Shown here: piece after piece, positions 20,709-42,333 of the stretch
How positions within the stretch are numbered: position 1 is the first letter of the stretch
Layout of the letters: each line of letters opens with the position of its first letter
Assembly: GCF_025506355.1 (NCBI RefSeq)
Contig: NZ_JANZYP010000015.1
Coordinates: forward strand, 62,001 to 126,000
DNA length: 64,000 nucleotides
Source: Sphaerisporangium corydalis
Lineage (GTDB): Bacteria; Actinomycetota; Actinomycetes; Streptosporangiales; Streptosporangiaceae
Direction of reading: 5' to 3'
Translations under genes and position numbers: made by a program
The notes under the pieces: generated by a model
The model's input: the letters and a program-made list of their open reading frames with translations, nothing else
The model's database searches: none
Told to the model about the DNA's origin: nothing

Positions 20709-23700
20709 CTACTCGGCCGGCGGCCGTCTCATCCAGTCCGGCACGTCCGCGCCGGTGATCTCGCGCAACCGCTCGGTGACCTGCTCCGGGCCCGCCGCGT
20801 ACGCGCTCCGCAGGAGGTCGGTGATCGCCCCGGCGATGCCCTGGGCGTGGCCGGGCAACTCCTGCGCGAGCTGAAGGGCCGCCGCAAGCAGGCCGGTCGC
20901 CGCACCGAACCGGCCCTCACGCACCAGCACGCGCCCGAGGATCGCCAGGCTCCGGACGTATTCGGGCAGATGGGCGTCACGATCACGCTCGGCCAGGTCC
21001 GCGTACAGCTCGACGCCCCGCTCGGCCACCGCGACCGCCTCGCCCTCCCGCCCCGCCCCGGCCAGCCGGTTCGCGTGGTTGTTCAGCGAGGTCGCGAAGC
21101 CGGGCAGGTGGGCGTCGGGATCGGACTCGGCCAGCTCCTCGTACAGGCCGACGGCCCGCTCGGACATCGCGACCGCCTCGGCGTCCCGCCCTTCCTCGGC
21201 CACCCGCAGGGCGTGGTTGGTCAGCGCCATCGCCAGCCCGGACAGGTGGGCGCCCCGGTCGGACTCGGCCAGTTCCTCGTACGAGGCCACGGCCTGCCGC
21301 GACACCGCGAGCGCCTCGTCCCGCCGCCCGGCCCCCGCCAGCAGGGCGGCGTGGTTGTTCAGCGACACCGCCAGGTCGGGCAGGTGGGCGCCGCGATCGG
21401 TCTCGGCCAGATCGTGGCGCAGAGCCACCGCCCGCCGCGACACCGCGACCGCCTCGTCCCACCGCTCGACCTCCGCCAGCCACGCGGCCTGATTGTTCAG
21501 CGCCTTCGCGAGGCCGGGGAGGTGGGCGTCACGGTTCCGCCCGGCCAGTTCCTCGTACAACGCCAGGGTCTCCCGCGACACCGCGACCGCCTCCGGCCCC
21601 CACCCCGCCTCCGCCAGCCGCTTCCCGTGGTTGTTCAGCGCCATCGCCAGTCCGGGCAGGTGGGCGTCACGGTTGAGGCCGGCAAGTTCGCGGTGCGCGC
21701 CCACCGCCCGCCGCGACACCGCGACCGCCTCGGCCCGCCGGTCCGCCCCCGCCAGCAGGGCGGCGTGGTTGTTCAGCGCCATCGCGAGGCCCGGCAGGTA
21801 CGCGGCGCGGTCGGCCCCGGCCAGCTCCTCGTACAGGTCGAGGGCCTGCCGCGACACCGGGACCGCCTCGGCCCGCCGCCCCAGCTCGGCCAGCAGGGCG
21901 GCGTGGTTGTGCAACGCCATCGCCAGGTCCGGCAGGCGCCCGGTGCGGTCCGGCCCGGTCATTTCCTCGTACGATTCCAGGGCCCGCCGCGACACCGGGG
22001 CCGCCTCGGCCTGCCGTCCCACCGCCGCCAGCCGGTTCGCGTGGGTGTTCAGCGAGGCCGCCAAGCCCGGCAGGTACGTGGCGCGGTCGGCGTCGGCCAG
22101 CTCCTCGTACAGGTCCAGGGCCTCCTTGGACATCGTGACCGCCTCGGCCCGGCGTCCCATCGTCGCCAGCCCCAGGGCGTGGTTGTGCAGGGACATCGCG
22201 AGTTCGGGCAGGTACGCGGCACGGTCGTGCCGGACCAGCTCCGCCCAGATGCGCAGGGCCCGCTCGTTGGAGGCGAGGGCCTGGGTGTGCAGGCCTGCGT
22301 AGGACTGCCGCAGCGCGAGGTCGTCGTGGACGCGGCCGTGGCGGGCGAGGTCGCCGGTGGCGGCGAGGCGGTGGGCGGCCAGGCGGGTGGCCAGGGCGGC
22401 GATGCCGATGTCGAGGTCGATGTGGCGGTGGGCGGGGAGCTCGGCCTCGATGGCCTCCAGGAGCGCGGGGTCGATGGTGTCCAGGCCGGCCAGGGTCGTC
22501 AGGGCGGTGCCGCCCGCGGTCAGCGCGAGGCGGGGGTGGGCGCGTAACAGCGGGTACAGCTCGTACTCGGCGACATGCGGCCAGCGCGCGGCGACCTCGA
22601 CCAGCACGCCGAGCGCCCCGCGCGCCCACCCCGGGACACCGCCACCGGGATCGGCCTCACCGTACGGGCCGGTGACGGGCGAGCCGGTGACGGGCGAACC
22701 GGTGACGGACGAACCGGTGACGGACGAACCGGTGACGGACGAACCGGTGACGGACGAACCGGTGACGGACGAACCGGTGACGGACGAACCGGTGGCGGAC
22801 GAGCCGGTGGGTTCGGTCGCGGGGGTGAGCAGGCGGGAGGGTGCTCGGTGGGCCCAGGGGTCGGCGGGGTGGTCGTGGGGATGGCCGGGGGTGGTGAGCG
22901 CGATGAAGTCCTCGCCCAGCCGGTCGGGATACAACGGCTGCAACATCCGCGCCTCCCCGCCCGGAGGTCCCGGCACTCCTGGCGCACCCGGCGTTTCCGG
23001 CAAGCCCGAAGTGAACGACGTGCCCGACGAGCTCGGGGTGTCCGGGCCAGAGGGGTCCGCGCCGGAGGAGTTCGCGCCGGAGCGGTCCGGGTCGGAGGGG
23101 TCCGCGCCGGAGGCGTTCGCGTCGGAAGGGTCCGGGCCGGGTGGGTAGTACAGGGCGTGGTCCTTGAGGATCTGGCCGACGTCCAGGTGGGACTCCACAC
23201 CGGCCCTGAGCAGGACGGCCCTGCCGTCGGCATGGGTCAGCGGCCCGGTCAGAGTGGCGGCGTACACCGCCTGACCCATCGCCTCGGGAGAAGTGGCCAC
23301 CGGGTTGTCCCGGGTCGGGGCGTGCATGGCCTCCCAGTGGTCACGCTCGCGGGCCAGCAGGAACGCCGACACCTCCACCGGATCGACCGGCGCGCCGGCG
23401 CCACCCGGCCGGGCCAGCACCGCGGCCAGCGCCGCCATGTGCACGGTCAGTACCAGCCCGTACGCCGCGTGCCGCTCCAGCCCGCCCGGCACCCCGGCGT
23501 CACCCGGCACACCCAGCGCCTCGGCGAACCGGTCGCGGGCCGAGGCGAACAACCCGGCGCGCGTCACGCCCGGGTCCCCCTCCAGCGGGCCCAGTTCCTG
23601 ACGGGTGGCGGCCACGTCCAGCTCGCGGCCGATCCGGCCCGCCACGCTCTGCCACCACGTGCCCGCCGGACGCGACAGCAGCAGCACCCGCACCGGGACG

Positions 23701-38789: not shown

Positions 38790-41348
38790 GTGAAGCTGAC
38801 GCGCCTGCTCGCGCCCGGGTCCGTCGCCGTCGTCGGGCCCTCCACCCGGCCCGGCTCGTACGGCAACCTCGCCGTGGCCAACCTGGTCGCCGCGGGGTTC
38901 CCCGGACCGGTCTTCGGCGTGCATCCGACCGCCACCGAGGTCCACGGCGTGCCCTGCGTCCCGGCGATCGCGGACCTGCCTGTCGTACCGGACGCCGTCG
39001 TGATCGCGACCCCCGCCGCCACCGTGCCCGGACTGATCACCGAGGCCGGGGAGCACGGCTGCGGCGGGGCCGTGGTGTTCGCGGCCGGGTTCGCCGAAGT
39101 GCCCGGCTCCTCGGCCGGGCGGCGGCTGGAGGACGAGCTGATCGCCGCCGCGGCGGCGTACGACATGCCGGTGTGCGGGCCGAACGGGAACGGGATCGTC
39201 GCGGTCGCGGGCCGGGCGCCCCTGTGGGGGGACGCCTACACGCCGCGCCGCGCGGGGCCGATCGCCCTGGTCTCCCAGAGCGGGAACGTCGCCGTCAACG
39301 CGCTGCTCAGCACGCGTGCCCTCCGGCTGCACACTGTCGTGTCCTGCGGCAACCAGTCCGTGGTCGGCACCTCCGGGTACCTCGCCGCGCTCGCCGAGAT
39401 GGGCGGGGTCCGGTCGGTCGCGCTGTACGTGGAGGACGAGGGCGACGGCGCGAGCCTCGCCACCGCCCTGGCCACCTGCGCCGACGCCGGCATCGGGGTG
39501 GCCGTGCTCAAGGCCGGTACGAGCCTGCTCGGCGCCTCGGCCGCCGCGGCGCATACCGGCGCGGTCGCCGGTGACGCGCGAGTGCTCAGGGCCCTGGTCG
39601 AGGAGGCCGGCGGCGCCTGGGCCACCAACCCCCACGAACTCCTCGAACTATCCAAAACCCTCGCCCACGGCACCCGCCGCACCCCCGGCTCCCGTTCCCC
39701 CCATGCCCACCGGAACCCCTCCCCCCACGACGACAGGGAGGGCACGGCACGCGGACGTAAGGACGAAGCCCTGCTTGAGGGTGTGGATATCCCCGGGGGT
39801 GCTGATGTGCCGGAAGGTGTGGGAATGGCGGGAGGCGTGGGCGTATTGGCGGGTGAGGGGGTGTTGGTCGTGACATGTTCGGGGGGTGACGCGGCCGTGG
39901 GTGCCGACGAGGCCGCGCGGCTGGGTGTGCCGTTACCGCCGCTCGCCGCGTCCACGCGGACCGCGCTCGCCGGCGTCCTGCCGCCGACGGCGACCCCCGG
40001 CAACCCGCTCGACTACACGGCGGTCATCTTCGGGGACCGGCGGCGTACCGCCGACCTGATCAGGATCGGCGCGGCCGACGAGGCGATCGGGCCGGTGCTC
40101 GTGTACTACGACCGGCCGGCGCTGATGAGCGACGACGCGGCGGTGGAATGGGACGGCGCGCTGGAGGGGGTGATCGAGGCCGCCGCCGGGCTGGAAGGGC
40201 GGGTGATCGTCGCCTCGACCCTGCCGGAACTGATGCCCGAGGAGACCGCCGAGCGGCTGGTCGACCATGGCGTCATCCCAGTGGCCGGCCTCACCGAAGG
40301 CATCCTCTGCGCCAGAGCGCTCCTCACCCCCCTCGGGAACGGGGATCGGCTACGCGAGATCGCCACTGCGGCTCAGCTCTCACTGTCCATGACCCCCGGT
40401 AGAGCCGCCCGCACCGCCCTGACGGCCTCCGGAACAGGGGTCCCCGCCACGAGCACCTCAGGCCGGACGATTCCCGGTGAAGTACCGGGTGAAGATCCCG
40501 GTGAACTCCCGGGTGAGCTTCTTGGCGAGGGTTCGGGGATGGCTCCCGGTGAGGTTCCGGGGCGCGGTCCGGGTAATGGTCGGGGGCAGGAGGGGTGGCT
40601 GGCTGAGCATGAGGGGAAGGCGTTGCTGAGGGGGCATGGCGTGTCCGTGCCCAGGGGGGTCGTGGTGCGTACCGCCGAGGAGGCCGTTCGCGCGGCGGGT
40701 GCGCTCGGCACGGCCGTCGCGCTCAAGCTCACCGGCGCTCACCTGCGGCACAAGACCGACGTCGGAGCCCTGCTCCTCGACGTGCGCGGCGCGGAGGCGG
40801 TACGGGCCGGGGCCGGGGCGCTCCTCGCCTCGGCGGCGGGGCCGGGTACGGCGCTCCTCGCCTCGGCGGGGCCGGGTACGGCGATCCCCGCCTCGGCGGG
40901 GCCGGGTATGGCGATCCCCGCCTCTGCGGGGCCGGGTATGGCGATCCCCGCCTCTCCGGCGGGGCCGGGGACGGCGATCCTCGTCGAGGAGATGGTCCCG
41001 GCGGGGGTGGAACTGCTGGTCGCGGTCCGCCGGGACGGCGTCGTGCCCGTTCTGGTGCTGGCCATGGGCGGGACGTGGGTGGAGGTCCTGGACGACGCCG
41101 TCCTGATCCCGCTCCCGGCCGGACCCCAGCAGGTAGCCGAGGCCGTCCTGCGACTACGGGGCGCGCCGACGCTGACCGGCGCGCGCGGGCGGCCTCCCGT
41201 GGACCTGGCCGCGCTCGGCCGACTCGCCTCCCGGGTGGGTGAGCTGGCCCTGTCGGACAACCTCGACCTGGTGGAACTGAATCCGGTGATCGCCGGCCCG
41301 GACCACGTGACCGCCGCCGACGCGATCATCAGGAGACGTCCCCGCTGA
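38790..41348 (+). CDS. ADP-forming-type acyl-CoA synthetase (CoA ligase) with repeat insertions
   Basis: 852 residues; normal single-chain members have about 700. Converts acid, ATP and CoA to acyl-CoA. Order: CoA-binding Rossmann domain (LLAPGSVAVVGPSTRPGSYGN), succinyl-CoA-ligase-like domain with GTSLLGASAAAAHTGAVAGD and the phospho-relay histidine H255, then an ATP-grasp domain (AEHEGKALLRGHGVSVPRGV, AVALKLTGAHLRHKTDVGALLLDV, ILVEEMVPAGVELLVAVRRD). Three inserts of low complexity: bases about 39670-39860, about 40480-40595 (GEVPGEDPGELPGE type) and 40828-40983 (ten-residue ASAGPGTAIP units inside the ATP-grasp fold). GTG at 38790 fits the conserved N-terminus. Controlled by the operator at 38760. 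The 3' end is the first unit of the 104-bp array. Confidence 0.85.
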   Translation: MKLTRLLAPGSVAVVGPSTRPGSYGNLAVANLVAAGFPGPVFGVHPTATEVHGVPCVPAIADLPVVPDAVVIATPAATVPGLITEAGEHGCGGAVVFAAGFAEVPGSSAGRRLEDELIAAAAAYDMPVCGPNGNGIVAVAGRAPLWGDAYTPRRAGPIALVSQSGNVAVNALLSTRALRLHTVVSCGNQSVVGTSGYLAALAEMGGVRSVALYVEDEGDGASLATALATCADAGIGVAVLKAGTSLLGASAAAAHTGAVAGDARVLRALVEEAGGAWATNPHELLELSKTLAHGTRRTPGSRSPHAHRNPSPHDDREGTARGRKDEALLEGVDIPGGADVPEGVGMAGGVGVLAGEGVLVVTCSGGDAAVGADEAARLGVPLPPLAASTRTALAGVLPPTATPGNPLDYTAVIFGDRRRTADLIRIGAADEAIGPVLVYYDRPALMSDDAAVEWDGALEGVIEAAAGLEGRVIVASTLPELMPEETAERLVDHGVIPVAGLTEGILCARALLTPLGNGDRLREIATAAQLSLSMTPGRAARTALTASGTGVPATSTSGRTIPGEVPGEDPGELPGELLGEGSGMAPGEVPGRGPGNGRGQEGWLAEHEGKALLRGHGVSVPRGVVVRTAEEAVRAAGALGTAVALKLTGAHLRHKTDVGALLLDVRGAEAVRAGAGALLASAAGPGTALLASAGPGTAIPASAGPGMAIPASAGPGMAIPASPAGPGTAILVEEMVPAGVELLVAVRRDGVVPVLVLAMGGTWVEVLDDAVLIPLPAGPQQVAEAVLRLRGAPTLTGARGRPPVDLAALGRLASRVGELALSDNLDLVELNPVIAGPDHVTAADAIIRRRPR
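40828..40983. repeat. 30-bp coding repeat, five units, in the CoA ligase gene
   Basis: Units at 40828-40860 (33 bp), 40861-40890, 40891-40920, 40921-40950 and 40951-40983 (33 bp). Core GGGGCCGGGTA and GGCGATCCCCG. It encodes ASAGPG(T/M)AIP repeats and lies in the ATP-grasp domain between the VRGAEAV helix and the VEEMV strand. Confidence 0.88.
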
Positions 41349-41660
41349 CCCCCAGGACCACGAAGACGCCATTGGGCTCCCCGCTGAACGCGACCGCCGC
41401 GCCCGACCACGTGACCGCCGCCGGAGCCGTCATCAGAAGACATCCTGGCTGACCCCGAGGATCACGAACACGCCACCCAGGTTCCCGCTGAACGCGATCG
41501 CCGGCCTCGAACGCGTGACCGTCGCCGATGCGGTCATCAGGAGATGTTCCCGCTGACCGTCAAGGGCTTGAACACGTCATCGGGCTCCCCGCCGAGCGCG
41601 ATCACGTGAGCGCCGCCGACGTCGTCGTCAGGAGGCATCCCCCCTGGCCGCCCAGGGCCG
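41276..41660. repeat. 104-bp tandem repeat from the end of the CoA ligase gene into the gap
   Basis: The last about 70 bp of the gene, including its stop codon, recur downstream in decaying form. GACCACGTGA is at 41301 and 41405; its variants GAACGCGTGA and GATCACGTGA are at 41509 and 41600 (spacings 104, 104 and 91). Each copy also keeps CGCTGAACGCGATCGCC-, GTCATCAGGAGA- and CCCGCTGACC-like blocks. The remaining bases to 41753 (about 90 bp) hold nothing recognisable. The array therefore fills most of the 405-bp gap between this gene and the ferritin-like gene. Confidence 0.85.
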
Positions 41661-41753
41661 CGGGCTCCCCCGCCGAAGGCGAGGGCAGCTCGCTGAGCTC
41701 TCAGCACCGAGATGGTTCCGGGGTGGGTGCAGGGTGGGGGGAGCGGGATGGGG

Positions 41754-42170
41754 CTACTCGCCCAGGGCGCCCTGGAGGTCCATGACGTGGTCCTGGGTTT
41801 GCTGGAGGAGCGGGCGGAGCGCCTCGGCCACGTCGGGGAGGCCGAGTTCCATGGCCTGCTGGACCCGGTCGCGGTACCGCTGGAGCTGGGCCTCCTCGAG
41901 GTCCAAGTCGAGCCGCAGCGCGGCGGCGCCGTCCGGCACGCTCGGGATCTCGGGCACCGAGACCGACGGGATCCCGCCGAGGAAGGCGATCTGCCCGGCG
42001 AGCGTCGTCGCGTGGTCCAGTTCCTGGTGCAGGTGGACCTTCAGCTCCTCAATGATGCTCTGGTACTCGGCCCCCTTGATCGTCGCGGTGTGCTGGGCGT
42101 ACTGGACGATCGAGCGGTACTCGCTCTCCAGGTCCTCGTTGAGAAGGGCGATGAAACTGTGCTGGTCCAC
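41754..42170 (-). CDS. Ferritin-like (bacterioferritin-type) protein
   Basis: 138 residues forming a four-helix bundle. LNEDLESEYRSIVQYAQH and EELKVHLHQELDHATTLAGQIAFLGG supply the Glu and ExxH iron ligands of ferritin-like di-iron proteins, and YRDRVQQAMELGLPDVAEALRPLLQQTQDHVMDL gives the third ligand pattern. Shorter than haem bacterioferritin (about 158), and the haem methionine is not evident. Likely stores or detoxifies iron or acts in redox stress. Monocistronic. Confidence 0.78.
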   Translation of the reverse strand: MDQHSFIALLNEDLESEYRSIVQYAQHTATIKGAEYQSIIEELKVHLHQELDHATTLAGQIAFLGGIPSVSVPEIPSVPDGAAALRLDLDLEEAQLQRYRDRVQQAMELGLPDVAEALRPLLQQTQDHVMDLQGALGE

Positions 42171-42333
42171 GCTTGGTCATCCTTTCCTCAGCCGTAGAGG
42201 TCACCCTCCTACCCCCTATCGCGGCGACAATGCGAGACCGCCTCCCTCACTCCCCGTAGCCGCGAACCCGATCCCCGTCGCGCCCTGACCTGGCAATCGT
42301 TGTGCTCGGCTTGGCGGGCGGGGTTCGTCGTGG

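Follow-up and report, generated by a model that had tools for sequence, protein, structure and literature searches.

A tandem array behind an acyl-CoA-synthetase-like gene of Sphaerisporangium corydalis repeats the end of the gene, stop codon included

In Sphaerisporangium corydalis, a 104-bp unit that takes in the final 61 bp of an acyl-CoA-synthetase-like gene, stop codon included, is repeated head-to-tail behind the gene. We confirm that this tandem array is real. We consider it very probably an ordinary decayed minisatellite that has no function of its own and is tolerated since its first copy keeps both the protein and the stop. The array lies in a stretch of 64,000 nucleotides, here called the window, from a draft genome of 9.48 Mb in 162 contigs, which has a G+C content of 72% over 464 kb.

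The gene (38790-41348, forward strand) encodes 852 amino acids of an acyl-CoA synthetase (NDP-forming)-like protein with the Pfam domains CoA-binding, Succ_CoA_lig and ATP-grasp_5. The annotation is based on Pfam and on homologues, and the start codon is that of the open reading frame list. The array starts at 41288, 58 bp before the stop triplet of the gene, and runs toward a convergent ferritin-like gene of 138 amino acids (41754-42170, reverse strand; Pfam PF00210 and gene call). Unit 1 (41288-41391), placed by TRF, a repeat search, a diagonal score and the homologous stops, comprises the gene end with its TGA (41346-41348) and 43 bp of downstream DNA. All units read along the forward strand, and the copies are held by the 405-bp space between the two genes (41349-41753). 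Unit 2 (41392-41495) keeps the TGA at 41450-41452, with the reading frame shifted, and unit 3 (41496-41599) keeps it at 41554-41556. Unit 4 (41600 to about 41652) is truncated, its stop triplet has become TGG, and a 13-bp deletion behind the GATC at 41600-41603 shortens the last step to 91 bp; this deletion and the exact unit boundaries were read from the sequence by eye.

The window contains further arrays. One is inside the same gene (40834-40980, 30-bp unit, 4.8 copies, 91% matches), where its period is divisible by three and it adds a Pro/Ala/Gly-rich stretch ahead of the last part of the ATP-grasp domain. Another, at 20963-22242, has 9.3 copies of a 138-bp unit with 75% matches and may be coding, its period being divisible by three. 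A third, at 22669-22809 (15-bp unit, 9.4 copies, 96% matches), is little decayed.

The evidence for the 104-bp array is clear. TRF reports a repeat at 41291-41601 with a period of 104, 3.0 copies, 76% matches and a score of 357, and the repeat search finds a 63-nt core four times at spacings of 104, 104 and 91 bp. These results recover the three downstream repeats of the gene end that the original prediction had described, including the stop codon inside the unit, although the repeated part begins at about 41288 rather than at 41276 as had been proposed. The best ungapped diagonal within 41200-41760 has an offset of 104 and scores 79.5, while 500 dinucleotide-preserving shuffles reach at most 15.5, thus the identity of the units, on which the prediction had staked the array, is above chance. 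The same is true of unit 4, since the tail at 41602-41753 scores 25.0 against units 1-3 and 200 shuffles score no more than 13.5. The array therefore has what characterises a minisatellite: head-to-tail copies, above chance, with a unit length between ten and about a hundred bp.

Seven homologues were compared to establish which unit is the original. Six of these are from other genomes that match the C-terminal part of the protein at an E-value of 1e-30 among 200 sampled in the family (G009, G049, G100, G126, G155 and G164); the seventh, G029, ranked second best of the other genomes in the homologue search. Weaker homologue matches were left out, as was the one distant relative that a scan of contigs for relatives returned. 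In six of the seven the stop is no more than three residues away from the unit-1 stop; the G155 homologue ends about 20 residues later. Downstream copies are absent from all seven, as blastn of the array against the DNA behind their stops gives only matches of 12-24 nt with E-values of at least 0.06; the stronger matches fall inside the homologues' genes, mostly at the homologous gene end. Because six of seven homologues end at the unit-1 stop and none carries copies, we conclude that unit 1 is the original gene end and that units 2-4 are copies of it. This comparison of related loci, which had been suggested as a check, supports the proposal of a serial duplication of the 3′ end in which the first unit ends the protein. 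Behind the stop of the G009 homologue (L044) there is an unrelated 29-bp array (3.5 copies, 93%), which starts about 15 bp downstream.

An alignment shows that units 2 and 3 are each identical to unit 1 at 83 of 104 positions and to each other at 72 of 104. Unit 4 is clearly worse, with 76% identity over 63 nt in addition to its deletion and truncation. The idea that each copy is more decayed than the one before is thus true of unit 4, but not of units 2 and 3, which are equally distant from unit 1. Unit 1 has 4 private differences and units 2 and 3 have 15 each, which fits a first unit constrained by the protein and later units that drift. One detail counts against this neutral reading: in the segment of unit 1 downstream of the stop (41349-41391), which is outside the gene, there are just 2 private differences, while the corresponding segment of unit 2 has 6 and that of unit 3 has 9. 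These are small numbers, yet selection on the protein leaves such a near-consensus segment unexplained.

This detail favours one of the two least unlikely alternatives, namely that the array acts as a 3′-UTR element, either stabilising the mRNA or terminating transcription in the space between the convergent genes. The array also sits exactly where such an element would. However, the 478-nt region, folded alone, forms no RNA fold above shuffles on either strand (z-scores of 0.28 and 0.42, with 62 and 67 of 100 shuffles folding at least as well), and simple consensus scans of 41200-42300, a range that includes the whole space between the genes, find no terminator-like or promoter-like site. None of the 15 pairs in a weak consensus fold of the four units is compensatory, and no Rfam family matches 41150-42300 at E-values up to 1. 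A structured 3′-UTR or intrinsic terminator is recognised by a stable or conserved fold, or by a hairpin followed by a run of T, and the region has none of these; a Rho-dependent or other unstructured terminator would escape such searches. The array is also absent from the seven homologues compared. A protective or terminating structure, which the original prediction had offered as its second option, is therefore improbable.

The other alternative at this level concerns gene ends in general, and it is best considered in the light of a survey of tandem arrays. The survey covers 2864 kb: 864 kb of the S. corydalis genome (the window and 40 stretches), 800 kb of G009, 400 kb of G008, 400 kb from four other congeners (G010, G006, G003 and G002) and 400 kb of G015, which belongs to another genus of the family. 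The S. corydalis stretches come from large contigs of known number and are not a random sample, and the genes were called by a custom codon-usage script rather than by a published caller. Arrays were counted when they had a TRF score of at least 80 and a period of at least 15. Their density per Mb was 146 in S. corydalis, 90 in G009, 72 in G008, 70 in the four other congeners and 180 in G015.

Tandem arrays that include a stop codon recur behind genes in S. corydalis and in some of its relatives. They account for 19 of 126 arrays in S. corydalis (the 104-bp array included), 10 of 72 in G009, 1 of 29 in G008, 1 of 28 in the four congeners and 7 of 72 in G015, whereas arrays over start codons number 4, 2, 0, 0 and 2 in the same order. 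Were the arrays placed at random along the sequence, they would be expected to cover 9.3, 6.0, 2.7, 2.2 and 5.3 stops and 9.6, 6.1, 2.9, 2.2 and 5.5 starts. As many stops as observed were covered in none of 300 trials for S. corydalis, and in 22, 286, 273 and 83 trials for the other sets. Under random placement, only S. corydalis stands out at stops, and starts are under-covered in every set. The stops within such arrays (39 by the criterion used for stop-triplet retention, 38 arrays by the main survey criterion) are TGA in 30 cases, TAG in 8 and TAA in 1, compared with 1868, 344 and 110 of all 2322 stops; the fourth base is C in 21, G in 14, A in 4 and T in none, compared with 1133 C, 669 G, 245 A and 275 T.

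Among arrays wholly inside genes, 169 of 170 have a period that is a multiple of three; among those that contain a stop, 17 of 38 do. By set, the latter are 7 of 19 in S. corydalis, 4 of 10 in G009, 0 of 1 in G008, 1 of 1 in the four congeners and 5 of 7 in G015, the last of which counts against a neutral reading. The number of arrays per kb of gap between convergent, co-directional and divergent genes, respectively, is 1.09, 0.64 and 0.21 in S. corydalis, 0.85, 0.27 and 0.04 in G009, 0.26, 0.11 and 0.05 in G008, 0.34, 0.24 and 0 in the four congeners, and 0.55, 0.88 and 0.10 in G015. The density is lowest between divergent genes in each set, and the order in S. corydalis is as expected if arrays are purged from promoters. 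This pattern suggests purifying selection on random tandem duplications, which would do harm in reading frames and promoters but none downstream of a stop that is preserved in the first copy.

It could instead be that stops in S. corydalis attract or favour tandem duplication beyond free placement, e.g. as hairpin-free copies of gene ends that aid termination, with our array as one of a class of unstructured 3′-end elements that arises anew in each species. In a model in which arrays are placed freely within their own gaps, which ignores selection at the start side, 19 of the 63 gap arrays in S. corydalis contain a stop against 10.6 expected (P = 0.0009). No such excess is seen in the remaining four sets (P = 0.34, 0.50, 0.76 and 0.45). 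Pooling all five sets gives 38 of 146 arrays over stops against 27.6 expected (P = 0.004) and 6 over starts against 13.5 (P = 0.003). In convergent gaps, which have no start nearby, the pooled sets have 17 of 45 arrays over a stop where 15.0 are expected (P = 0.27), and this fits a uniform model. The excess at stops may for the most part be the other face of the avoidance of starts, and a special role for stops seems to us about as improbable as the 3′-UTR element. That said, the excess in S. corydalis (19 against 10.6) is a loose end that merits a full count.

A third possibility, less likely again, is that the copies serve as a reserve of gene ends, retained to provide stop codons in other frames or to act as donors for recombination. 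Units 2 and 3 do keep both the TGA and an open frame of the last residues of the gene. However, no codon pattern is seen among the copies: the differences at the first, second and third codon positions number 2, 4 and 6 between units 1 and 2, 3, 3 and 3 between units 1 and 3, and 3, 7 and 6 between units 2 and 3, with no clear excess at the third position, and the changed codons alter the residue in 6 of 10, 7 of 8 and 10 of 12 cases. Furthermore, since 104 cannot be divided by three, units joined directly are out of frame with each other. The copies of the stop-containing arrays in the survey also speak against this explanation. Of 50 copies, 30 have an intact stop triplet, and of 1581 other triplets 875 are intact. 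Per base, conservation is 122 of 150 (81.3%) for stop triplets and 1433 of 1781 (80.5%) for other bases; within the unit it is 82.6% upstream of the stop and 78.9% downstream. As stop triplets are kept hardly better than others, there is no sign of selection on the copied stops, and we regard the spare-end explanation as very unlikely.

Still less likely is that the array belongs to a dispersed family of repeats that inserts at gene ends in the manner of the MIRUs (mycobacterial interspersed repetitive units). These have units of 40-100 bp, are scattered over the chromosome and occur in tandem at some intergenic loci (PMC2734929, PMC4213456), and are described as scattered over 41 places in one genome (PMC2734929). 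They are said to be apparently mobile, inserting at start codons with a coupled short open reading frame (PMC12548453). The 104-bp unit is similar in size and place; in contrast to the MIRUs it is local, derived from a gene and located behind a stop before a convergent gene. We found no second locus of the unit in the S. corydalis genome, where 42 matches at E-values of 1 or less included the array itself, the best match after it had 37.4 bits (E = 0.023), and 40 of 310 initial candidates were scored. Among eleven genomes of the genus, the array was found in S. corydalis only and in none of the ten others at an E-value of 1e-6. Two matches at this threshold concern the gene: the one in G009 lies in the gene and spans positions 281-625 of a query starting at 40700, thus including the gene end, and the one in G001 is a 45-bp stretch in the region of the 30-bp repeat. 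The unit is hence local to its locus by both comparisons. In its left part the unit consists of the end of the gene itself, shared with the homologues, and it differs from the other stop-containing arrays in sequence (19 were compared by eye) and from most of them in period. With a single locus in its own genome, a MIRU-like dispersed repeat is largely refuted.

Least credible of all is an assembly artefact: the genome is a draft in 162 contigs, but units 1-3 differ from each other at 20-31% of positions, and a misassembly of identical reads would not be expected to create such differences.

We return to the decayed minisatellite, our preferred explanation. For changes in tandem repeats two models are named, slippage and recombination, and selection against frameshifts is noted for coding repeats (PMC3899988). 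We propose that a tandem duplication, through slippage during replication or through unequal recombination, first copied the 104 bp that span the gene end, beginning 58 bp ahead of the stop triplet and reaching about 43 bp past it, and that further rounds of duplication would have led to about four units. The protein would have remained unchanged because its last codons and its stop, in the first unit, are still the original ones. Lying between convergent genes, the extra units would have been free to drift, losing about 20% of their identity and, in the last unit, 13 bp.

The array resembles bacterial minisatellites and VNTR loci in its head-to-tail arrangement, its intergenic location, its imperfect copies and its locus-specific unit of tens to about a hundred bp. 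It is unlike them in that the unit holds the end of the upstream gene and its stop codon. A further comparison is provided by the rnc-fpg1 repeats of Mycobacterium tuberculosis (ETR-F or VNTR3239), which lie in an intergenic space of about 280-360 bp, are described as absent outside the M. tuberculosis complex and have a length that correlates with the expression of the gene that they precede (PMC2734929). Both arrays are tandem and intergenic, but the rnc-fpg1 repeats are upstream of a gene while ours is between two gene ends. The titles and opening lines of abstracts in a literature search held no description of minisatellites over stop codons as a bacterial class, from which we make no claim of absence.

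As a single locus the array is of little importance. It does carry a caution, that a repeated stop codon alone is no sign of function. The survey suggests that duplications spanning a stop are tolerated in these G+C-rich genomes and common in some species, and that arrays at gene ends escape the multiple-of-three constraint seen inside genes.
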